A DNA stretch of 64,000 nt from an uncultured Bacteroides sp. (GTDB lineage: Bacteria; Bacteroidota; Bacteroidia; Bacteroidales; Bacteroidaceae): positions 124,001 through 188,000 of the forward strand of contig CANSEY010000002.1 in NCBI GenBank assembly GCA_947646015.1. Direction: 5' to 3'. Positions 33,975 to 43,605 of the stretch are shown piece after piece; the stretch's first letter is position 1, and every line of letters begins with the position of its first letter. The notes beneath the pieces were generated by a model. That model made no database searches and was not told the origin of the DNA. It saw only the letters and a program-made list of their open reading frames with translations. Both the position numbers and the translations under genes were made by a program.

Positions 33975-34141
33975 TAAAATATAAACTTCTTTTCTTAATA
34001 TTTATTACATTGTTTCGCTTCTTAATTTAATAATATGTGGTATTTTAAAGGCTCGATCACTTTTACTTGCTTCTATTTGCAGGTTTTGTGTTAGCCATAA
34101 ATGAGGGGGGCAAACTTTTTGATACAACCCGTATTCAGGAC

Positions 34142-34154
34142 CTGTTTAAATTTT
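34142..34154 (+). repeat. 13-mer CTGTTTAAATTTT, copy 1 (probable IS end)
   Basis: The same 13 bases occur in the same orientation at 39247-39259. Copy 1 lies 78 bp before the start of the IS5-like transposase remnant, where the terminus of such an element is expected. The sequence from 33975 to here contains no gene. Confidence 0.5.
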
Positions 34155-34231
34155 ATAGTTTGAAATAAAAAGAGTGTTTCCTCTTTCCGTCAAAATGATT
34201 ATTTTTTTTAGTTGCCAAGCTTCAAATGATT

Positions 34232-35024
34232 ATGTATTTAACGGATTTAGAAGCAATACAGTTACAAGTTACCAAGAAAATCTTGGATTTGCAAGAAAGA
34301 AAGCGAAAATATGATTTGAGTGAAATATGGAATGTAATATTCTATATCGTCAATATCGCTTATCAGTGATGCATGTTGTCTTCGGACTTCGTACCTTGGG
34401 AATTGGTTTACTACTATTATCGTAAATGGTCTTTTTGGGGTGAATTTGATCTGTTATTGAATAACTTAAGAGAAAAAGTACGTGTGGAAATGGAATAAGT
34501 TGCAGGAGCTGGTTTGGGTATTATGGATAGTCAAAGTGTTTGTTGGGGCGACAATCGTCCCCTCAACGGCATTGATGGCAACAAAAGGGTTAAAAGAATC
34601 AAGCGTCATGTAGTAGATAAGAATGGTTTTCTACTCACTGTAATGGTGACAATAGTTTGCGTGCATGATGGCAAAGTCGTTTATCTGTTAGCTAGATTGT
34701 CTTGGGGAACTTTGCTGTTATATCAAAATCATACTGGCAGATGTCGGTTATCGCTGGGGAATAGGAGAAAATATTAAAAACGCTTTTGAATATTTGGCTA
34801 TTCTCGGTATGATTAATTTTCTTCAATTGGGTAAGCCGTCTTATTATCGTAACAGTAAACAGGTTACCGGATTTGCCGATTGCCAAAGTCGAGATTTGGA
34901 TAAACTGCACTTTCATTTGTGGTACTTCATTGACCAATGTAAATATAGCCTAATTAAACCGAATATCGCAATAAATCGAAGGCTATGGGAAGAAGGGATT
35001 GGAATTGAGGTGGTTGTGATGTAA
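34232..35024 (+). pseudogene. Decayed IS5-family-like transposase
   Basis: From ATG 34232 (MYLTDLEAIQLQ) one frame runs to 34777 with two in-frame stops (TGA 34367-34369, TAA 34496-34498) and then shifts: near 34720 the coherent frame becomes the one reading ILADVGYRWGIGENIKNAFE. Diagnostic segments are SEIWNVIFYIV, 'GIMDSQSVCWGDNRPLNGID', 'GNKRVKRIKRHVVDKNGFLL' and LADVGYR, the pattern of DUF4096/DDE transposases of IS5-type elements common in Bacteroides. After about 34840 similarity is no longer visible. It is clearly inactive. It lies downstream of the kelch gene and marks the left border of the AT-rich accessory segment. Confidence 0.75.
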
Positions 35025-35053
35025 GTATTTGAATTTTAAGTGATTATTGTTGC

Positions 35054-36385
35054 TTATTCCCGATTAATAAAATGTAACTCTGTGCGGTCAAAATCGGATA
35101 ATCGGACCTCATAAACTCCAGAATCCCCTAACTTGCCATCTACTCCTTCACTATATCCTCCCACAATAATTAATTTATCGCCCGTGCAATAAAGTCCACC
35201 CGCCCGTAACTTCAGATCAATTTGATAAGCTTTTGTCTCATTAGTACATAAATTATATACTTGTATCACACCATTTTCCAAAATGTAGACTTTATCTCCA
35301 CCACGAGTCATAGCCGCCTTACTTATTGAAAACCACAAGTTTCCTCTATTCTTCCAAATACCGGTAGTCAGATCATAAGTGAGTATTGTCGATAAAGGTC
35401 TTTGTCGATACCCACCAAATAAGAAAACAGTATGCCCCATAAGAATTCCATTTGTTTCCATTCCTAAGGGCATTTTTCCTACCTCATACCAAATGCCTTT
35501 TTTCAAATCAAGCATGTGTATTTTATCTGAATATTTTTGCCATCCATTTTCTGCCTGATAGGTAGAACCTCCGAAGATTATTAATTTGTTATCGTAAATA
35601 AATGCAGCAGAAGAAGCGGCTTGATGCGGATTCACTGGGTCTATTAATATTGTATCCTGATGTATATTATATATCTCTACCGTCTCATCAAGATACTCAA
35701 TCTTCCGATTAGTTGAGAAACGTTTCCCACCCATAATATAGATTTTCCCATCATTGTAAAGAGCTGAATGATAAGCACGCTCCCTCAACTTTTGGTTTGA
35801 AACGATCCAAGTATTCGATGTGGTATCATAAATATACATTCTATTACTATACTTTTCATAAATAAACCCTGTGGGAAGTCCGCCAGATGCTCCCAAACTA
35901 AAGCCCATAGGAAGTTTTATCTGAGATCTATCTCCACCTATAATATACAGTTTCTTTCCTAATGAAATCATTGCAAACGAATATAGTGGGACAGGCATTG
36001 ATGATATTTGTGTATATGGCAAACGTAAGTAAGTTTTTTTTATGCCATAAACAGATACTTCTCCTAGTATAAATGGCTCTTCTTGCAATAAAATCACATT
36101 TTTCTTTTGCAATAAAGAGGCTACAGCAAATTTTCTTGTACGATATCCGACAAAAGAAAAACAGAGAGTATCTATATTATGTAACAACTCTCCATTGTTT
36201 ATCATAAACTCACCCTTTTTATCTGCAACAGCTACTCCTACCCCCCGATTAGTATAAATATTAGCTCCTGCCAAAGGCTGTTTTGTTTTTGCATCAATAA
36301 TTTGGCCTCTAACTTGAGAGGATAAATTATTGTTGCACCATGGTGCGAGAAATATTATTAACCATAAGTACTTTATCATTTTCAT
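35054..36385 (-). CDS. Secreted carboxypeptidase-like/kelch-repeat protein in the RiPP-like cluster
   Basis: A 443-aa exported protein. Signal peptide about 1-23 (ends NLSSQ). Residues about 25-110 form a carboxypeptidase-D regulatory-like domain ('VRGQIIDAKTKQPLAGANIY', 'IDTLCFSFVGYRTRKF', LGEVSVYGIKK), the same module that begins TonB-dependent transporters. The remainder has six kelch-type repeats with the G-G pair ('LGKKLYIIGGDRS', 'NDGKIYIMGGKRF', 'YDNKLIIFGGSTY', 'HTVFLFGGYRQ', 'GDKVYILENG', 'GDKLIIVGGYSEG'), which would fold as a six-bladed propeller. It is the last gene of the minus-strand operon, 56 bp after the peptide gene. It could be a surface receptor, immunity or adhesin component; no known function. 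Confidence 0.8.
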   Translation of the reverse strand: MKMIKYLWLIIFLAPWCNNNLSSQVRGQIIDAKTKQPLAGANIYTNRGVGVAVADKKGEFMINNGELLHNIDTLCFSFVGYRTRKFAVASLLQKKNVILLQEEPFILGEVSVYGIKKTYLRLPYTQISSMPVPLYSFAMISLGKKLYIIGGDRSQIKLPMGFSLGASGGLPTGFIYEKYSNRMYIYDTTSNTWIVSNQKLRERAYHSALYNDGKIYIMGGKRFSTNRKIEYLDETVEIYNIHQDTILIDPVNPHQAASSAAFIYDNKLIIFGGSTYQAENGWQKYSDKIHMLDLKKGIWYEVGKMPLGMETNGILMGHTVFLFGGYRQRPLSTILTYDLTTGIWKNRGNLWFSISKAAMTRGGDKVYILENGVIQVYNLCTNETKAYQIDLKLRAGGLYCTGDKLIIVGGYSEGVDGKLGDSGVYEVRLSDFDRTELHFINRE

Positions 36386-36393
36386 ACATATTA

Positions 36394-36430
36394 GAAGAAT
36401 AGATATCTATTTTAGAAATACCTATTCTTC
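36394..36430 (-). other. Hairpin between the precursor peptide and kelch genes
   Basis: 9-bp perfect arms (36394-36402 and 36422-36430) with a 19-nt loop, just upstream of the kelch start at 36385. There is no T-run, so an mRNA-processing or stabilising role, or partial attenuation, is more likely than termination. Confidence 0.45.
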
Positions 36431-36441
36431 ATTTAAATTGG

Positions 36442-36741
36442 CTACGTCATACCAGGACAAAGATATAACATACAATCATCTTGGTCACAACTACACTCCC
36501 AGCCCATCGTGGGACAAATGGGAGGAAGTCCATCACAATTACAGAACTGATCACATGGATCAGCATAGCAAGGCGGAGCTGAATCTTTATTTACACATGT
36601 ATTTTTACCACAACCATCTGCTCCTCCTTTTAAAACATACTGTTCCATAAGATCTAATCTTTCGATTCTTTCATTAACCCCCATATTCATTTCGAATTCA
36701 AAAAAAATTGAGTTTAAAGAAATCATTTCTTTCTTTTTCAT
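36442..36741 (-). CDS. Cys-rich RiPP-type precursor peptide with KGG leader
   Basis: The start is ATG 36741 (MKKKEMISLNSIFFEFEMN): a strong Shine-Dalgarno AAAGGAGGTG lies just upstream at about 36750-36759, which rules out the GTG three codons earlier inside it. The product is 99 aa. Residues 1-38 form an amphipathic leader, then LKGG (residues 37-40), a double-glycine-type leader end. The 59-residue remainder has 11 Cys (44, 49, 58, 63, 67, 69, 76, 83, 85, 90, 95) with Pro, Gly and Asp and few hydrophobics. It is encoded with a radical SAM/SPASM protein and is the probable substrate. It resembles the GG-leader natural product precursors of Bacteroidales in leader only; the core matches no family I know. 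No C39 peptidase transporter is in the window. Confidence 0.75.
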   Translation of the reverse strand: MKKKEMISLNSIFFEFEMNMGVNERIERLDLMEQYVLKGGADGCGKNTCVNKDSAPPCYADPCDQFCNCDGLPPICPTMGWECSCDQDDCMLYLCPGMT

Positions 36742-36762
36742 ACTTGACACCTCCTTTCTATA

Positions 36763-37431
36763 TCAATAACTATCTAGTATCTTGTTAATATCTTTTCTTA
36801 AAAGAGAATACGACTCCCAATTATATGGCAATATCTTTCTGATGAAATTGTATAAAACATAATCAGTTTTCTCTAAAAATATAAAAGGATTCCTCCCCTC
36901 TGATTTTGTAGTTATCCGATGAGGATAGTGAGCAAGATAAAACAATTGAATTAATCTATTGCAGACCATAAATACGCTTTTCTTCTTCTCGATGCATTCA
37001 TCATGATCTATATTACAAATCTCCAATATTTCATTCTTTAAATTATCAACAAGCATAGTCCTTAACAATACTCTGCGTTCAATTATATCATTCAAATATT
37101 TTTGTAAATCCTTTATTAGATGTAACGGGTCATAAATACCTCGGGAAGAAGAAACAAACGTCAAAGGCATATTATGATATCCATATAAATACTTTTGAAA
37201 ATCTCGATATATATGTTGTTTTGAAATAATAAATATGGTAACCTCCAGTCCATCATATTTAAAAGTTACTAAATATGCCCCTGTTATAGATGCTTTCATA
37301 AACAAAATATCAAGATCACTGTCTTTCCTAAAAAAAAATTCTGCAACAGATCCACCGAGTGCAATTGACGCATCAGGAAACGATTTATGTAGAAAATCTA
37401 CTACTGTATGAGCAACTTCTAAATGTTTCAT
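36763..37431 (-). CDS. Nucleotidyltransferase-fold protein
   Basis: A 222-aa protein with an N-terminal nucleotidyltransferase signature: 'SIALGGSVAEFFFRKDSDLD' (GGS at 26-28, Asp at 39 and 41), the G-S-x(n)-D-x-D pattern of the polymerase-beta superfamily that binds Mg-nucleotide. The third acidic position is less clear ('GLEVTIFIIS' has Glu where Asp is usual). The C-terminal 130 residues are helical and unrecognised. The start overlaps the preceding gene by 4 bp (ATGA), and the precursor peptide follows after 21 bp. It may nucleotidylate the peptide or another protein of the pathway (inference); an antitoxin-type MNT role is less likely because no HEPN partner is obvious, though the adjacent helical 118-aa protein has not been excluded as one. 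Confidence 0.7.
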   Translation of the reverse strand: MKHLEVAHTVVDFLHKSFPDASIALGGSVAEFFFRKDSDLDILFMKASITGAYLVTFKYDGLEVTIFIISKQHIYRDFQKYLYGYHNMPLTFVSSSRGIYDPLHLIKDLQKYLNDIIERRVLLRTMLVDNLKNEILEICNIDHDECIEKKKSVFMVCNRLIQLFYLAHYPHRITTKSEGRNPFIFLEKTDYVLYNFIRKILPYNWESYSLLRKDINKILDSY

Positions 37432-37784
37432 AAAAGACGTTTTATTACTATATTATTCTTTCTTTTAGCAACAAATTCGTTTTCTTTAATTTCCAATAAT
37501 AAGTTTTTGATGTCCTGTATACTATTTTCGTTTAAAACGGAATTCAAAAACAGATCTATTCTTTCAATATAAGATTCATATCGCTTCGTATTTCTTATTC
37601 TTTCTCTGAAAGAGAAAAGTCCTCCCTCCAATTGAGAAAGGTACAAAAAAGAGTATAATTCTTCTTTCATGTCTAACATCCTCAAAAGATTGTCTAATGT
37701 AAACTCTTCCCTTGAAATCGCATTATCTTTCAAGAGTTCTTCATCTGATAACAATAGTATTACATCCTCTAAATTATTTATCAC
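37428..37784 (-). CDS. Small helical protein of unknown function in the RiPP-like operon
   Basis: A 118-aa, mostly helical, acidic/basic protein (MINNLEDVILLLSDEELL start) that I do not recognise. The start is GTG 37784, preceded by AAAGGAGA at 37791-37798, a strong ribosome site; the gene overlaps the end of the radical SAM gene by 11 bp and the nucleotidyltransferase by 4 bp, so all three are made as a unit. Size and position are like the small 'modification system' proteins of other peptide clusters (for example those with CXXX-repeat peptides), or a HEPN-like partner of the nucleotidyltransferase. It has no Cys, signal peptide or membrane segment. Confidence 0.65.
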   Translation of the reverse strand: MINNLEDVILLLSDEELLKDNAISREEFTLDNLLRMLDMKEELYSFLYLSQLEGGLFSFRERIRNTKRYESYIERIDLFLNSVLNENSIQDIKNLLLEIKENEFVAKRKNNIVIKRLL

Positions 37785-39153
37785 AACTTATCTCCTTTCT
37801 TATATATTCATCATAGATAATCTTAATCATACGAATGAAAAGTTGTGGATAATTATTGCAATTTCCAGGTTTTACTTTTCCATTTTTCCTCAAACTTCCT
37901 ATAATACAGCCACCTCCGCAAAATAAGGCATATTTACACTTGCAGCAATTGGATTCACTGACATTCATATAAAACCAAAATTTAAGTCTATCATCTTCAA
38001 GATGAAAGTCAGGAATATAACGTCCTATCTTATATTTAGATATACCTACTACATCCCAACAAGGATAGATATCTCCAAGTGGATCAAAAATAATATTACC
38101 TGTTTGCGATCCACAAAAAGCTCCTTTATAAGCCAATGGTTTACCTAATAACAAAGATTTCAGAATATTATATGTCCCATAATTCTGGCACTCTGCTTTT
38201 TCATCTAACTTTCCGAGTTTTTTCTTTTCATAAAAGGTATTTACTAAGTCTATTTGAGAGAATGGAGTTTCAAACATTGAATTCTCCTCAATGTCCTTAC
38301 GTAATAAAGCGCAATATGGAGCAAATGTCCGGTAGCGATACCACCCTTTTTGTTTAAAGAACAAGAACAACTCGTCAAGTCGACTAATTGTATAAGAATC
38401 TGTATTTATTCTAACTGCAACAGGAAAGCCTAATTTTAATAAAGCATCAATATTCTCCGTGATCTTTGTAAAAGAATCATTGTTTTTATAATGTGGCTTT
38501 CGTTCATTCTGAACATCCTCTACACCATCTAAGGTTATTTGAAAAGAGAAAATCTTATTATCTTTCAAAAAATCAAGATATTTATCAATATCATAGCCAT
38601 TGGTTGTTACAGAAAAATTACATTTATTTTCTTTCCCTTTTTTCACTATATAGCAAATCATATCATAATTGTCTGCAAGGAATGGCTCTCCTCCATATAA
38701 AGCAATCGTTCTAGAACATGAGCCATCTTTTATTTTTTCTGATATTATCTCAAAGGCTCTGTCAATATATTCTTTAGAAATCTTGGCTTTAGGTAAACAA
38801 TGTGAACCGTTTAAAATGGGATTCTCGTAACAATAAATACAACGTAAATTACAATCATATGAAAGTATGAAATGAAAATTATATTTTTTAAAGCGCATAT
38901 CCTTATGAGCCTTATCGAGCAAATGTTTCACGAGTTGTATTTCTTCACTGTGTGTGAGAGAAGTTAAGTATCCTCTTTTTATTAATTTATTTTTAGTATC
39001 TTCTGACACATGTCCCAAATTTCCATTATTTTTAAGAAAGTCATAAACGCTTTTATTCACAATGTCAAGGGCACGTGTATATCCATTTAAAATAACGTAT
39101 AGATTCTTTTTTTTATCTACATTTACAGATATATTATAAGAAGACGCTCTCAT
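37774..39153 (-). CDS. Radical SAM/SPASM peptide maturase
   Basis: A 459-aa radical SAM enzyme. Residues about 1-65 resemble a PqqD/RRE-like winged helix found at the N-terminus of many peptide maturases ('YVILNGYTRALDIVNKSVYD', then KRGYLT). The core has the 4Fe-4S site CNLRCIYC (C101, C105, C108) and the SAM-binding GGEPF (154-158). The C-terminal SPASM domain carries at least seven Cys for auxiliary clusters: C347, C365, C403/C404, C406, C412, C416 and C432 ('CCKCKYALFCGGGC'). Enzymes of this class make thioether, C-C or epimerised residues in ribosomal peptides. It is first in the operon, behind a promoter at 39192-39222, and the Cys-rich peptide encoded four genes down is the likely substrate. 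Anaerobic sulfatase maturase is a less likely alternative (no sulfatase nearby). Confidence 0.88.
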   Translation of the reverse strand: MRASSYNISVNVDKKKNLYVILNGYTRALDIVNKSVYDFLKNNGNLGHVSEDTKNKLIKRGYLTSLTHSEEIQLVKHLLDKAHKDMRFKKYNFHFILSYDCNLRCIYCYENPILNGSHCLPKAKISKEYIDRAFEIISEKIKDGSCSRTIALYGGEPFLADNYDMICYIVKKGKENKCNFSVTTNGYDIDKYLDFLKDNKIFSFQITLDGVEDVQNERKPHYKNNDSFTKITENIDALLKLGFPVAVRINTDSYTISRLDELFLFFKQKGWYRYRTFAPYCALLRKDIEENSMFETPFSQIDLVNTFYEKKKLGKLDEKAECQNYGTYNILKSLLLGKPLAYKGAFCGSQTGNIIFDPLGDIYPCWDVVGISKYKIGRYIPDFHLEDDRLKFWFYMNVSESNCCKCKYALFCGGGCIIGSLRKNGKVKPGNCNNYPQLFIRMIKIIYDEYIRKEISCDK

Positions 39154-39191
39154 GGTATTTTTAATTATAGTTGATCTATTACGATTCCCTA

Positions 39192-39222
39192 CAAATATAA
39201 CAATTCATTTGATTAATTAAAA
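39192..39222 (-). promoter_or_regulatory. Promoter of the RiPP-like operon
   Basis: Minus-strand TATATTTG (39192-39199) matches TAnnTTTG exactly, with TTTT at the -33 position (39219-39222) after a 19-nt spacer (TTTG expected). It lies 39 bp upstream of the radical SAM start. Confidence 0.55.
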
Positions 39223-39240
39223 ATAAAATAGCAGAAATAT

Positions 39241-39361
39241 GAGAGTCTGTTTAAATTTTCCTCATAAAAGTTTTTATTCAGTTTGTTTTCCTCTTTTTAT
39301 TCGTCACATAGTCCGCTATGCTCCTCATAAAGATAGAAAAACATCCTCAAAGAGGACTCTC
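39241..39361. repeat. MITE-like element or IS end remnant
   Basis: GAGAGTC (39241-39247) and GACTCTC (39355-39361) form a 7-bp inverted repeat around about 107 bp without coding potential. The left end runs into the 13-mer CTGTTTAAATTTT (39247-39259) that is also at 34142-34154. Internally there is a small palindrome CATAG/CTATG (about 39308-39321). Confidence 0.4.
39247..39259 (+). repeat. 13-mer CTGTTTAAATTTT, copy 2
   Basis: Identical and same orientation as 34142-34154. The two copies enclose the IS5-like remnant and the whole radical SAM operon (about 5.1 kb). Confidence 0.5.
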
Positions 39362-39619
39362 AAAACAATACTGAGCAAAATTTAAGAGAGCTCCAGGTCT
39401 ATTCCAAATAAAGTTTAGTAATCGCAAGGAAATAAGCTGGTACAGTTTTCATTGACACCGTTTCTCCCATACCGGATAAAAATAGATATATGAATATGGC
39501 CTTAGATAACCATTGAAAATTGTCTTGATTATGAATTAAACCAGTACCTTTTCTGTAGCTATATTTGTAGACCCGGAGAAAAATCGTAAATTTAGATGCT
39601 TGACAAAGGTATTTATAAG

Positions 39620-40530
39620 ATGATTACAAAATCTACTTCAAAAGTGCTTAAGCTTGAAGAACCGGCTTATATTGCTATATTTAGCAAATGTTGAACACAA
39701 TAGTTCTTGGCAACGAAAGCAATCTCCCTTCACGAACTTTTAGCATCAGCAAAGTTAGTAAGCATACACTTTATAAAGACAAATGGGAACTTAGAATCGG
39801 TAATGGTTCCGGTAAGGGGGCGTATTCGGCGACAAGGTGGTGGCAGGAAGTATCTTCCGGGTCTTCACCCTGAGTGGATAGACGCCTTGAAGATTGTAAT
39901 TGAATCATATACAGCAGAAGTCCCTCAATAAGTAAAGAACTGTCGAAGAATGGATCTGATATATTCGAATATATTGTTAGGCAGGTTCTTGATTTGCTAG
40001 CCTTTCACCATTGTTCTTTCATAAAGGATATGCCGATGAAAGAAGTTAAGGACAGAGATGCACAATTTAAGAATATCTCTTCCATAAGGACAGCATGTTG
40101 GAAGATCGGATTTCCTATGATCAGTATTGATACCAAAAAGAAAGAACTCATTGGCAAGTTCAAGCGCAACGGAAAAGTTTTGATTAAAACTCAGCAAAAA
40201 TCTCTTGATTATGATTTTGCCATATTTTCCAATGGGCAGATCATCCCTCACGGCATTTACGATGCCACGGGGAATGTTGAATATGTGACAATTAGTACAA
40301 GCCATGATGCTTCTAAGTTCGTTTGTGACAACATACACAACGTCTTCAAGAACAGTATCATAAGGTCCATATGCTCGTGATAATATGGGATGACGGAGGC
40401 TCGAACTCCAGTTCTCACTGCGTTGTAAAGCGAGAACTTATGGAATTCGCTGACAAACTAAAAATGAATTTTTGGGTGATATATTATCCGCCATATTGTT
40501 CCTAAGTTCAATTCTATTAAATGTTTAATT
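39620..40530 (+). pseudogene. Decayed ISAzo13-like transposase
   Basis: Pieces in at least three frames keep the order of an ISAzo13-type (Rhodopirellula-type DDE) transposase: RGRIRRQGGGRK near 39810 (in frame with ATG 39620 but after stops), then 'VKDRDAQFKNISSIRTACWK' and 'MISIDTKKKELIGKFKRNGK' (first catalytic Asp, 40030-40170), GQIIPHGIYDATGNVEYVTI, FVCDNI, then DDGGSNSSSHC (second Asp region, about 40397-40430), VIYYPPYCS with a stop at 40503, and KFNSIK by another shift. Multiple stops and frameshifts make it non-functional. It forms the right border of the accessory segment. The 54 bp before it and 39362-39619 hold no gene. Confidence 0.75.
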
Positions 40531-41092
40531 GTTCCTATTGATATATATTCAGAAACGTATGATATAGATTTATGAAAAGGAGGTGTCTTAGAGGACTTGT
40601 TTTTCATGGACAGTTTCCTAAATGGAATTATCTCATCAAACCAGTATAATGTGTACCAAGTTATTTTAAAGCATTACTTAAAGTAGTATAGTAAGGTGGA
40701 TTCGAACAGAGATGAGTAGCGGGAGTTAGCATCATTTCAGTGTCTGGGCGGGGCTTGATATCATTCTGTCACTTTGATAATCGGGGCTCTCCAGAATCGT
40801 TTATTTCGGACGTGGGCACTTGCCTGAATGAAAAAACGCATTCTACTGGATGCGTTTGATGATGTATTTCTTAGAATTTTGATTGTTTGGCTGCAATAGG
40901 AAAGTGGAAATGTCTTGTCGGTGTTAAAAGGTTTCTTGTGTGAAGCTGTATTCCTGCCTTTTGTCACTTCGGGAAACTCTGCCTGCGCTTGTAACCAGAA
41001 GAAAGAATGTTCCTTTTAGACCGAATTTTGAATAACAATGGGAGATATTCGGGAAAACAATAGAAGATATTTCTAAAACATAAGGACGTTTT
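40531..41092. other. Intergenic DNA without a recognisable gene
   Basis: Non-coding on both strands as far as I can judge. The only clear structure is an 8-bp perfect hairpin (40834-40841 with 40850-40857, 8-nt loop), without a long T-run after it on either strand. Confidence 0.5.
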
Positions 41093-41136
41093 GGGTAAAT
41101 GCTTACGTCTTTTCGGGTAAATGCCTACTTCTTTTC
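41093..41136. repeat. Tandem 22-bp repeat, two copies
   Basis: Units 41093-41114 and 41115-41136 begin GGGTAAATGC and are identical at 20 of 22 positions. Further shorter duplications (CTCCGAAGCCT-like and CGGCTCTTTT) follow to about 41205. No coding function seen. Confidence 0.6.
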
Positions 41137-41318
41137 GTAAAAAAACGGCTCTTTTGTCTCCGAAGCCTGGTACTCCGGCTCCGAAAGCCTCCGTTCGGCT
41201 CTTTTCTTCTCCAGGATTATCGGAAACGATCAGGAATCCTGTTGTCAAAAACGGATGTTTACTTTCTTTTTGCGCTGATATTCCGGGAATATATGACATC
41301 CGGCCGGATTATACGGGT

Positions 41319-41394
41319 TTCACCACAGATTAGCGCAGAATGATTTTAAGTCATTGATTATCAATATAAGTAATCTGTATTAATCTGTGGTGAA
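41319..41394. repeat. Interspersed palindromic repeat, copy 1
   Basis: Perfect 14-bp inverted repeat TTCACCACAGATTA (41319-41332)/TAATCTGTGGTGAA (41381-41394) around 48 bp. A shorter, related copy occurs at 46743-46830. Located between the accessory segment and the GH36 gene. Confidence 0.65.
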
Positions 41395-41445
41395 TTCCGG
41401 CAAATCCCCAAATTTAGAATAGGGGGCTTATGGATCGTTCTTTCT

Positions 41446-43605
41446 CTACTCTGCTACCACCTCTATTACCCGGCTATTGGTTTGTGAAGTTGTAAATGCA
41501 TTCAATCCTATTTTCATCAGATAGTCACCGGAGAAGATTTTCTCATTACCCGACAAATTGGATTTCCGACCCGGCATCAGATTAATTTCCTTCACCCGGT
41601 ACATCTTTTGGGCATCAAGCCCCCGGAGCTTTACCGGTAGTAGTTTCTCGCCGAAACGCGGATGGATGTCGTAGGTAAAGAGGACGGCTTTCGAAGCATC
41701 GGGGGCAGCATACATCACTGCCATGTGGTTGCCATCATATGGAGATACGAGACGATATTGATCACCATCTAGAATGACAGGTTTCAAGCGTTTATAATTG
41801 GCTACTGCTTCCTGGCAATAAGTAAGTTCATCTGCTTTCATGTCTTTCAGTCCGATGTCGAAACCAAGTTTACACATACTGGCAACATCGGTGCGGAATT
41901 TCACACTTGTTCTGCTGTTCCAGCTTGTTACGTGTGCACACATCGCTTTGGCCGGGAAGAACTGTGAGAAGCCCCACTGAATGAATAAGCGTTCTACCGG
42001 ATCGGTATTATCCGAACACCAAAATTCGGTGAAGTACTTCAGTGCTTCATAATCACAACGTGCACCTCCACCGGAGCAAAGCATCATGGGCACATTAGGA
42101 TATTTCTCTTTTACCCGTTTCAATACATTATATATACCGCGCACGTGGTCGATGTAGAGCTGTCCTTGTTTATCTTTCAGGTAAGGCGAATAAATATTAG
42201 TAATCGGACTGTTGCAATCCCATTTAAAGAAGGCTACATCGGGATTCTCCGTCATAATCTTATCTACGACACCAAACACGAAGTCTTGTACTTTAGGATT
42301 GCTCAGGTCAAGTACCAACTGATTACGGAAATAATAAGTTTCCCGGTTCGGGTAATGGATAGCCCATTCCGGATGTGTTTCGAACAGGTCACTTTTGGGA
42401 TTCACCATCTCTGGTTCAATCCAGATACCGAATTTGACACCGGCTTCTTTCGCTTTCTCTACTAATGCAGGGATTCCTCCGGGAAGCTTACTTTTCATCG
42501 CTTCCCAATCGCCCAGGCCGGCATGGTCATCGTTGCGCGGATGTTTGTTGCCAAACCATCCGTCGTCGAGCAGGAACATATCTACGCCTAGGTGTTTGGC
42601 CTCTTTCATCAGTTTGCCCAGTAATTCTTCATCGAAGGTGAAGTAAGTATTTTCCCAATTATTAAGCAGAGTCATTCGGTCTCCCTTGCCGTCTTTCAGT
42701 TGGTAGTTGCGTGCCCAATTGTGCAGGTTACGGCTGGCTTCACCCGTACCGTTGTTACTCAACGTAAAGATAAACTCCGGGGTGGTAAATGTTTCGTTTG
42801 CTTTCAATTGATAGTCCGAGGCGTATGGATTGATAGCAGGGATGATTCGTAAGTCGCCTTCATTGTCCACTTCGAAAGTAAACTGGTAGTTGCCTGTCCA
42901 TCCGATGGTGCCCAATACTACTTGTCCCTGATGCTCCTGAGCGGGCTGTTCCAGTCCGAGTTCAAAAAAAGGTTGCATGTGCATGGCAGCACGGCTACCT
43001 AACTTCGTATCGAGAATCTTTTTGCCGGGTTGCAATTGCTGTGTACTCATCTGCACCTCTTTAGCCCAGTCACTGCTGAATTCGGTGAGATAATATTTTT
43101 GGTTTGAGAAGTAAAGCATTGTCGAAGCATAACGCCATAACACGACCGGCTTCTTTTGTTGATGCTTGATCTCGCTCCATGTTTTGATGACATTTTGTTT
43201 AGGATAGGCTACATAGTGCAGTGTGACGTCCACCGGATATTGGTCATCTTTCATCCGGATGATGGTTTCTGTTCCACCTTCCACTGCTTTCTGTTCCGAA
43301 GATACATAACGCAGGATCGTGCTGAGATTGCCATCGTTGTTCGTAATGGCTACGGCCGGTTCGAAATAATCTTCTCCACCCGAACCCGGATAGACTTCCC
43401 ATCCTCGTGAGGAGCCGGAAAGGTTTTTCAGGTCTTGTTCGTTCAGTAGTCTGTCACCTAGATAAGATTGATACAGACGTCCGTCCGGAGCAACTTCCAG
43501 GATAAGGTCCGTCCGATCTGTCGAGATGCGAATCTGTCTGGACTCTTGTGCATTGACATGAATACAAGCTACAAGAATCAGTAATGTTGCAAGTAATTTT
43601 TTCAT
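41446..43605 (-). CDS. Alpha-galactosidase, GH36
   Basis: The start is set at ATG 43605 (MKKLLATLLILVACIHVNAQ), which gives a signal peptide; the frame extends 14 codons upstream without sense. 719 aa. The N-terminal beta-sandwich is followed by the catalytic barrel: 'FLLDDGWFGNKHPRNDDHAG', GIWIEPEMVNPKSDL, the nucleophile Asp in AFFKWDCN (about D463) and the acid/base Asp in FWCSDNTDPVER (about D532), then a C-terminal beta domain. It hydrolyses alpha-galactosides such as melibiose and raffinose in the periplasm or outside. It stands alone with its own promoter (43645-43676). It is not part of the GH27-susCD locus but may act on the same sugars. Confidence 0.93.
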   Translation of the reverse strand: MKKLLATLLILVACIHVNAQESRQIRISTDRTDLILEVAPDGRLYQSYLGDRLLNEQDLKNLSGSSRGWEVYPGSGGEDYFEPAVAITNNDGNLSTILRYVSSEQKAVEGGTETIIRMKDDQYPVDVTLHYVAYPKQNVIKTWSEIKHQQKKPVVLWRYASTMLYFSNQKYYLTEFSSDWAKEVQMSTQQLQPGKKILDTKLGSRAAMHMQPFFELGLEQPAQEHQGQVVLGTIGWTGNYQFTFEVDNEGDLRIIPAINPYASDYQLKANETFTTPEFIFTLSNNGTGEASRNLHNWARNYQLKDGKGDRMTLLNNWENTYFTFDEELLGKLMKEAKHLGVDMFLLDDGWFGNKHPRNDDHAGLGDWEAMKSKLPGGIPALVEKAKEAGVKFGIWIEPEMVNPKSDLFETHPEWAIHYPNRETYYFRNQLVLDLSNPKVQDFVFGVVDKIMTENPDVAFFKWDCNSPITNIYSPYLKDKQGQLYIDHVRGIYNVLKRVKEKYPNVPMMLCSGGGARCDYEALKYFTEFWCSDNTDPVERLFIQWGFSQFFPAKAMCAHVTSWNSRTSVKFRTDVASMCKLGFDIGLKDMKADELTYCQEAVANYKRLKPVILDGDQYRLVSPYDGNHMAVMYAAPDASKAVLFTYDIHPRFGEKLLPVKLRGLDAQKMYRVKEINLMPGRKSNLSGNEKIFSGDYLMKIGLNAFTTSQTNSRVIEVVAE

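Follow-up and report, generated by a model that had tools for sequence, protein, structure and literature searches.

Radical S-adenosylmethionine (SAM) enzymes with a SPASM domain, which mature ribosomally synthesized and post-translationally modified peptides (RiPPs), have been much studied. The ranthipeptide maturase PapB is described, in the part of its report on which we draw (PMC9413430), as joining Cys to Asp in CX3D motifs and as accepting spacings of n = 0–6. There are precedents for a nucleotidyltransferase (NTase) in a RiPP cluster, since excerpts of two reports place such enzymes in daptide clusters (PMC10036551) and in the lasso clusters of bacteria from the rumen (PMC13289728). 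The NTase-like protein PsmN decorates the phosphorylated C-terminal Ser of the lasso peptide pseudomycoidin, as an excerpt of its report describes (PMC9266682). Here we analyse a stretch of 64,000 nucleotides from an uncultured Bacteroides sp. (contig CANSEY010000002.1, positions 124,001 to 188,000; the window). It contains, at 35054–39222, a five-gene operon in which an NTase is fixed between a SPASM maturase and a Cys-rich precursor peptide, which is unusual for RiPP clusters. Judged from sequence, the locus is a recurrent and probably mobile RiPP cluster that combines a radical SAM/SPASM maturase (rSAM) with an unusual pair of proteins, the NTase and a small protein X. The product is likely a Cys-rich peptide that is made and decorated by the cluster. 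An NTase fixed in this position would mean a second, non-radical tailoring step in a gut commensal.

All five genes lie on the minus strand, in the order rSAM-X-NTase-peptide-kelch. The features of the operon, in window coordinates, are as follows:

37774..39153, minus strand: radical SAM/SPASM peptide maturase (rSAM), 459 aa, with CX3CX2C at residue 101 and a complete SPASM cysteine pattern
37428..37784, minus strand: protein X, 118 aa, GTG start, predicted to be all-helical
36763..37431, minus strand: NTase, 222 aa, with a GGS...DxD motif
36442..36741, minus strand: precursor peptide, 99 aa from the ATG, with a KGG leader and an 11-Cys core ending in CPGMT
36622..36741, minus strand: precursor leader, residues 1–40, with the stretch EMISLNS...FEF...MGVNERIERL common to homologues in alignments
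36445..36621, minus strand: predicted core, residues 41–99 (59 aa), with 11 Cys, 8 Asp and a C-terminal Thr
36748..36757, minus strand: Shine-Dalgarno-like AAAGGAGGTG upstream of the peptide gene
35054..36385, minus strand: protein of 443 aa with CarbopepD_reg_2 and a kelch beta-propeller; its N-terminus looks signal-like by eye

The gene calls confirmed the layout given by the initial annotation, a five-gene minus-strand operon with overlaps of 11 bp (rSAM/X) and 4 bp (X/NTase) and a 99-aa KGG peptide with 11 Cys in 59 core residues. The NTase stop codon is 21 bp upstream of the ATG of the peptide gene. Bacteroidota seldom depend on Shine-Dalgarno-like sites, and AGGAG or GGAGG occurs within 20 bases upstream of the first ATG in 3 of the 36 window open reading frames (ORFs) of at least 200 aa. 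AAAGGAGGTG likewise lies 5' of the peptide gene of a second locus, in Bacteroides oleiciplenus, and not 5' of that of a third, in an IMG/VR contig. Because a homologous peptide is encoded at the equivalent place in these two other loci, and because AAAGGAGGTG lies upstream, we regard the peptide gene of the window as more than a chance ORF.

The initial annotation had proposed that the gene order should recur and that the peptide should be non-random in homologous loci. In B. oleiciplenus YIT 12058 (G118) all five genes are found in order (rSAM, X, NTase, peptide, kelch), followed by genes for a C39-peptidase ATP-binding cassette (ABC) transporter and an HlyD protein. Upstream of that cluster are genes for a 136-aa protein with a signal-like start, a tetratricopeptide repeat (TPR) protein and a second kelch paralogue. 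IMG/VR contig 3300037424_002473 has four of the genes in order, rSAM-X-NTase-peptide, and no kelch, C39 or HlyD match was detected within the 17.4 of its 46.9 kb that were read. A DNA methyltransferase gene and one more gene, both with PHROG matches, lie 1–5 kb beyond the peptide gene of this contig, and a metallopeptidase gene (by eye) and a sigma factor gene (PHROG matches) lie on the other side; these neighbours were weighed for a possible origin of the genes as phage cargo. The order rSAM-X-NTase-peptide is present in 3 of 3 loci found with the NTase, and neither of the refuting conditions named in the initial annotation came true. A kelch gene is next after the peptide gene in two of these three loci, and the window kelch protein, which has Pfam matches to kelch repeats and CarbopepD_reg_2, is 36% identical to the equivalently placed protein of B. 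oleiciplenus. Kelch relatives occur in 22 of 157 genomes of the genus. Of the five genes, the one for the kelch protein is the most dispensable to the cluster, given the lack of a match in the IMG/VR stretch and the presence of the NTase in only 2 of the 22 kelch-bearing genomes.

The NTase family looks rare, because its profile matched in 2 of 158 genus genomes (the window genome and B. oleiciplenus) and in 1 of 395 class genomes (the window genome itself). The NTase query detected B. oleiciplenus at 41% identity among 148 genus genomes, along with three further short matches (E 1e-4 to 1e-3), and gave no match in plasmid and phage records. With the window peptide as query, the search of 149 genus genomes retrieved only the peptide itself and missed B. 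oleiciplenus. Scanning genome contigs with the rSAM alone gave no match and a second scan gave B. oleiciplenus only; scans of viral contigs gave 3300037424_002473 and one rSAM fragment at 28% (L052). Radical SAM relatives are more widely spread. At E ≤ 1e-25 the window rSAM alone matched in 48 of 393 genomes of the order, with 35% identity for the best foreign match, and the rSAM profile matched in 6 of 395 phylum genomes at E ≤ 1e-60. Around six foreign rSAM copies (5.5–14 kb read), and in the loci of genome G405 and of a Muribaculaceae plasmid, there was no NTase or X match at E ≤ 1e-3.

The adjacent precursor with a conserved leader and a variable core recurs in 3 of 3 loci. In the window peptide, YVLKGG occupies residues 35–40 and all 11 Cys fall within the 59-residue core. 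It matches the peptides of the two other loci with BLASTP E-values of 2e-11 and 5e-13, and all pairwise comparisons among the three precursors lie between 2e-10 and 5e-13, with leaders conserved and cores divergent. The cleavage site is KGG in two precursors and KAG in one. We assessed the spacing of residues in the three cores. Neither CC nor CxxC occurs (0 observed against 7.9 expected, P 1e-4), and a metal-binding peptide of the CxxC type is disfavoured for this reason. C-x2/3-D is over-represented (13 observed against 6.4 expected, P 0.005, post hoc); taken singly, Cx3D has 6 observed against 3.1 expected (P 0.072) and Cx2D has P 0.022. Both tests, CC/CxxC and C-x2/3-D, are suggestive only, since they were framed after the spacing table was seen. 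A C-terminal Thr is present in 3 of 3 NTase-linked precursors (CPGMT, CRIMDLT, CPSMT) versus 0 of 6 relatives without the NTase (Fisher P 0.012, uncorrected for phylogeny). The latter count covers the precursors, recognized by the leader-motif pattern, of six of the eight nearer relatives; none was found for G766 (L056) and the Muribaculaceae plasmid (L041), and both were excluded.

The maturase carries the expected iron–sulfur motifs. The window rSAM has a Pfam radical SAM match and scores 48 bits against the SPASM domain model TIGR04085 (cut-off 27). CX3CX2C and the SPASM cysteines (C-x9-15-G-x4-C ... CX2CX5CX3C ... C) are found in all three NTase-linked rSAMs, and the final SPASM Cys, C432, is invariant in the alignment. 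The three enzymes are 53–57% identical pairwise, the window rSAM being 55% and 57% identical to the two others. Its top NCBIfam match is PapB (NF047865), at 120.9 bits versus a cut-off of 340; across the three enzymes this model gives 120.9, 108.1 and 108.4 bits, and none reaches the cut-off. In the best 25 of the 60 NCBIfam models listed, the window rSAM is far under the cut-offs of all maturase families, and the general SPASM domain model alone passes. The NCBIfam neighbours of the three rSAMs are the PapB, CefB, Clo7bot and nif11-type maturases. Ranthipeptide-type chemistry stays a candidate for the window rSAM, because PapB is its best NCBIfam match and Cys-x2/3-Asp is enriched (post hoc). 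The proposal that this SPASM-enzyme RiPP cluster falls outside the named families was supported by its recurrence, by conserved leaders with variable cores and by the lack of a fitting NCBIfam maturase or precursor model. None of the window peptide, X and NTase has an NCBIfam match at E ≤ 1. The chemistry may be that of ranthipeptides.

We placed the maturase among its relatives in a 22-row rSAM tree, which took 11 of the 28 rSAM loci L004–L031 and left out L052; its G405 row is a fragment and its plasmid row a long branch. The three NTase-linked rSAMs form a clade with support 100/100, nested in a nine-row group (98/97) with rSAMs of other Bacteroidota, with G919b and G589 just outside. The precursor leaders of the relatives are of an LN...F...ELExRLE type and resemble the window leader SLNS...EF...E..RL. 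In the assembly, an in-frame TGA interrupts the G405 maturase gene (L038, 9560–10978), which adjoins an intact 86-aa Cys-rich peptide gene. The mobilizable Muribaculaceae plasmid (L041; CP061010.1, 18.8 kb) encodes a SPASM rSAM 32% identical to that of the window, then an outer-membrane-type and an M50-like protein (by eye).

Sequence identity among the three NTases is 32–42% pairwise (42% and 32% for the window NTase against its two homologues), and GGS/AGS and DxD are kept in all of them. The window NTase scores 19.9 bits against PF01909, below the cut-off of 21, and the two homologues score 31.7 and 36.8 bits, above it. The finding that the NTase-linked precursors all end in Thr (3 of 3, versus 0 of 6 relatives), together with the PsmN precedent, suggests this residue as the candidate site of the NTase. 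Protein X of the window is 35% identical to that of the IMG/VR contig (E 4e-19), and the X proteins of B. oleiciplenus and the IMG/VR contig match weakly (E 0.039). The window X was modelled with AlphaFold at a mean predicted local distance difference test (pLDDT) of 72, with residues 1–26 below 50. X of B. oleiciplenus was scanned in Pfam only, and that of the IMG/VR contig in Pfam and PADLOC. We rejected a HEPN-MNT toxin-antitoxin assignment: no HEPN RX4-6H motif occurs in the three X proteins, and MntA was listed for one of the three NTases, at 19.4 bits versus a cut-off of 60. A defence-system assignment was likewise rejected. The PADLOC scan of the window rSAM gave a viperin match of 45 bits, which we take as general radical SAM likeness, and the other proteins have weak PADLOC matches.

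A C39 exporter adjoins the cluster in one of the three loci, right after the kelch gene of B. oleiciplenus. The window genome encodes four full-length C39-type exporters similar to it. The best of these (78% identical, contig C17) is near a glycosyltransferase-like gene and a TIGR04150 pseudo-rSAM gene (510.6 bits, cut-off 250), and we infer that it may serve the window peptide in trans. In another genome (G133; L094, 6898–15671), a kelch relative adjoins a C39 ABC exporter 55% identical to that of B. oleiciplenus and a VKOR/C39-domain protein, a possible peptide export locus. A second kelch paralogue of the window genome (L090, 4840–8765; contig C2, ~74.8–78.8 kb) is near an NVEALA peptide gene, a TolB-like propeller gene and a DUF1573 protein gene. 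This neighbourhood hints that kelch proteins of this kind go together with small secreted peptides.

Two further features bear on the mobility of the operon:

34105..41446, no strand assigned: operon-bearing 7.3-kb segment, replaced by 63 bp in the relative G081 and read as an insertion
39994..40377, plus strand: ISAzo13-type transposase fragment (PF07592, E 8.7e-28) within the 7.3-kb segment

Genome G081 is 99.2–99.5% identical to the window on both flanks of the segment and has 63 bp in place of 34105–41446. Insertion in the window strain seems a simpler reading than deletion in G081. An 81%-identical kelch gene occurs in G081 at a different site, where the window strain has none. The guanine-cytosine (GC) content is 0.307 from peptide to rSAM, 0.342 in the 7.3-kb segment and 0.42 and 0.45 in the wider flanks. 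The ORFs at the left end of the segment have no transposase match. In G073 and G047, relatives of B. oleiciplenus, there was no HlyD, C39, peptide, NTase, X or rSAM match in the 16 kb read. G047 retains pieces of the TPR gene, which suggests that the cluster was lost there. The cluster was probably acquired horizontally, as far as can be judged from these comparisons. A narrow, patchy distribution and the absence of the segment from a close relative suggest movement among Bacteroides, which would fit a product used in competition or signalling.

We therefore favour, with a probability of about 0.6, a SPASM RiPP cluster that makes a thioether-linked Cys-rich core, tailors it with the NTase-X pair and exports it through a C39 transporter, and that was probably horizontally acquired. 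The iron–sulfur motifs of the rSAM, the double-Gly-type site that separates a conserved leader from a variable Cys-rich core, and the linkage in three genomes are apparent from the sequences themselves. In the proposed pathway the rSAM would bind the leader and form thioethers between the thiols of core Cys and neighbouring residues, of which Asp is the likeliest. With the aid of X, the NTase would then attach a nucleotide-derived group to the peptide, with the conserved C-terminal Thr as a possible site. The C39-peptidase ABC transporter, encoded by the adjacent gene in B. oleiciplenus and in trans in the window genome, would cut after KGG and export the product. The kelch protein would be an exported accessory partner for binding, immunity or reception. 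Being small and intact, the four-gene unit would allow direct assays of both proposed steps. It is unlikely, though conceivable, that the cluster represents a hitherto undescribed RiPP class, in which a multiply thioether-bridged Cys-rich peptide has its invariant C-terminal Thr nucleotidylated, or given a nucleotide-derived phosphate group, by a dedicated NTase-X pair. This combination was not found in the searched portions of openly licensed PMC papers, and the main text of a survey of Bacteroidales RiPPs has no words beginning with nucleotidyl, kelch or oleiciplenus (PMC10352776).

Several observations weigh against the favoured reading. The best maturase family differs for each homologue (PapB, Clo7bot, CefB), always below the cut-off; as every listed maturase cut-off is missed and the best family varies among the three, no single chemistry can be assigned to the rSAM. 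The spacing tests cover three cores and were made post hoc, once 48 residue/spacing pairs had been tried twice, and the C-terminal Thr pattern sets one clade against the rest, effectively one event. The B. oleiciplenus precursor has KAG instead of KGG. The window X has no meaningful BLASTP match to X of B. oleiciplenus (E 27), so that homology of the latter rests mainly on position, length and the weak link to the IMG/VR contig; no fold matched the X model at E ≤ 0.001, and the NTase model is poor (pLDDT 53) and unusable. The GC contrast is not sharp, because the 2 kb directly to the left, common to G081, are at 0.37 and the right side at 0.46. The window itself has no match to the C39 or HlyD proteins of the B. 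oleiciplenus exporter.

Four alternative explanations were weighed. The rSAM could make a different known linkage, a Cys-alpha-carbon sactionine or a carbon-carbon cyclophane, with Cys partly left for disulfides formed after export; its similar low scores against many SPASM maturase families, including SCIFF and cyclophane makers, would fit. Cyclophane makers nevertheless score under the Cys-peptide families (YhhB 62 versus PapB 121 bits for the window rSAM) and Asp is enriched at C-x2/3 (post hoc), and we consider this account rather doubtful. To a similar extent we doubt that the window copy is a stranded, non-producing remnant that arrived without its exporter beside transposase debris. The missing C39/HlyD match and the transposase fragment in the segment speak for it, but all five reading frames are unbroken, the operon has its overlaps and a ribosome-binding-like site, and the 78%-identical exporter is available in trans.

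The pair of X and NTase may also be read differently. NTases of this superfamily include antibiotic-modifying enzymes and also MntA antitoxins. With these roles, and with the weak MntA (19.4 bits, cut-off 60) and HalB (18.2 bits, cut-off 190) NCBIfam matches of the IMG/VR NTase, the two proteins could be a pair that serves the cluster in immunity, resistance or regulation and not in tailoring. This seems somewhat improbable to us given that none of the three X proteins has the HEPN motif, that PADLOC matches of the NTase are partial (14–22 bits) and found in two of the three, and that both genes stand between rSAM and peptide in all three loci. The least probable of the alternatives, which we consider quite unlikely, is that the NTase is a catalytically dead fold which, with X, chaperones the rSAM or offers it a platform for leader binding. 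The sequences show only two of the usual three carboxylates and, by reading, T or S occupies the place expected for the third in all three NTases, so the enzyme is possibly non-catalytic; yet GGS/AGS and DxD are kept in all three despite 32–42% identity.

We compared the cluster, taken as a thioether-forming SPASM system with an added NTase step, to described systems. The PapB/PapA ranthipeptides (NF047865) share a SPASM maturase with a Cys-rich substrate, the best NCBIfam match and C-xn-D pairs in the cores, whereas the window rSAM remains at 120.9 of the 340 bits required, the regular six-fold CX3D array is absent and the NTase and X are additional partners. CefB, Clo7bot and nif11-type maturases (NF038107, TIGR04334, TIGR04064) are similar over most of the rSAM, at 96–123 bits in the three homologues, although these scores are far under the cut-offs (519–600 bits) and the precursors match no NCBIfam model. 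GG-Bacteroidales systems (TIGR04148/TIGR04150) with a C39 exporter also occur in Bacteroides and have a double-Gly leader, and the 78%-identical exporter of the window genome is near a TIGR04150 gene. Unlike them, the window cluster is without a pseudo-rSAM and has an NTase; its peptide matches no precursor model (no match to TIGR04148/04149/04150 at E ≤ 1), and the best NCBIfam score of its rSAM, 120.9 bits, is below the TIGR04148 cut-off of 300.

Five loci (L053, L054, L055, L057, L058) constitute a separate Bacteroidota RiPP-like family of a SPASM rSAM, a 47–61-aa peptide, an M50-like membrane protein and, often, a TPR or cyclase-like protein. Their rSAMs are 34–38% identical to that of the window, three of the five loci lie inside the 98/97 rSAM group and their ELExRLE-type leaders share SLN or LN...F...E..RL with the window leader. 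They differ in that no NTase or X match occurs in the 8–14 kb read, the precursors have 2–4 Cys and the partners are an M50-like protein (sub-cut-off Pfam match in 2 of 2 scanned) and TPR or cyclase-like proteins. No lasso or daptide genes were seen in the window cluster. The NTase-containing RiPP pathways (pseudomycoidin and some lasso and daptide clusters) also have an NTase within a RiPP cluster, and PsmN, as far as the excerpt describes it, works at a C-terminal hydroxy residue.

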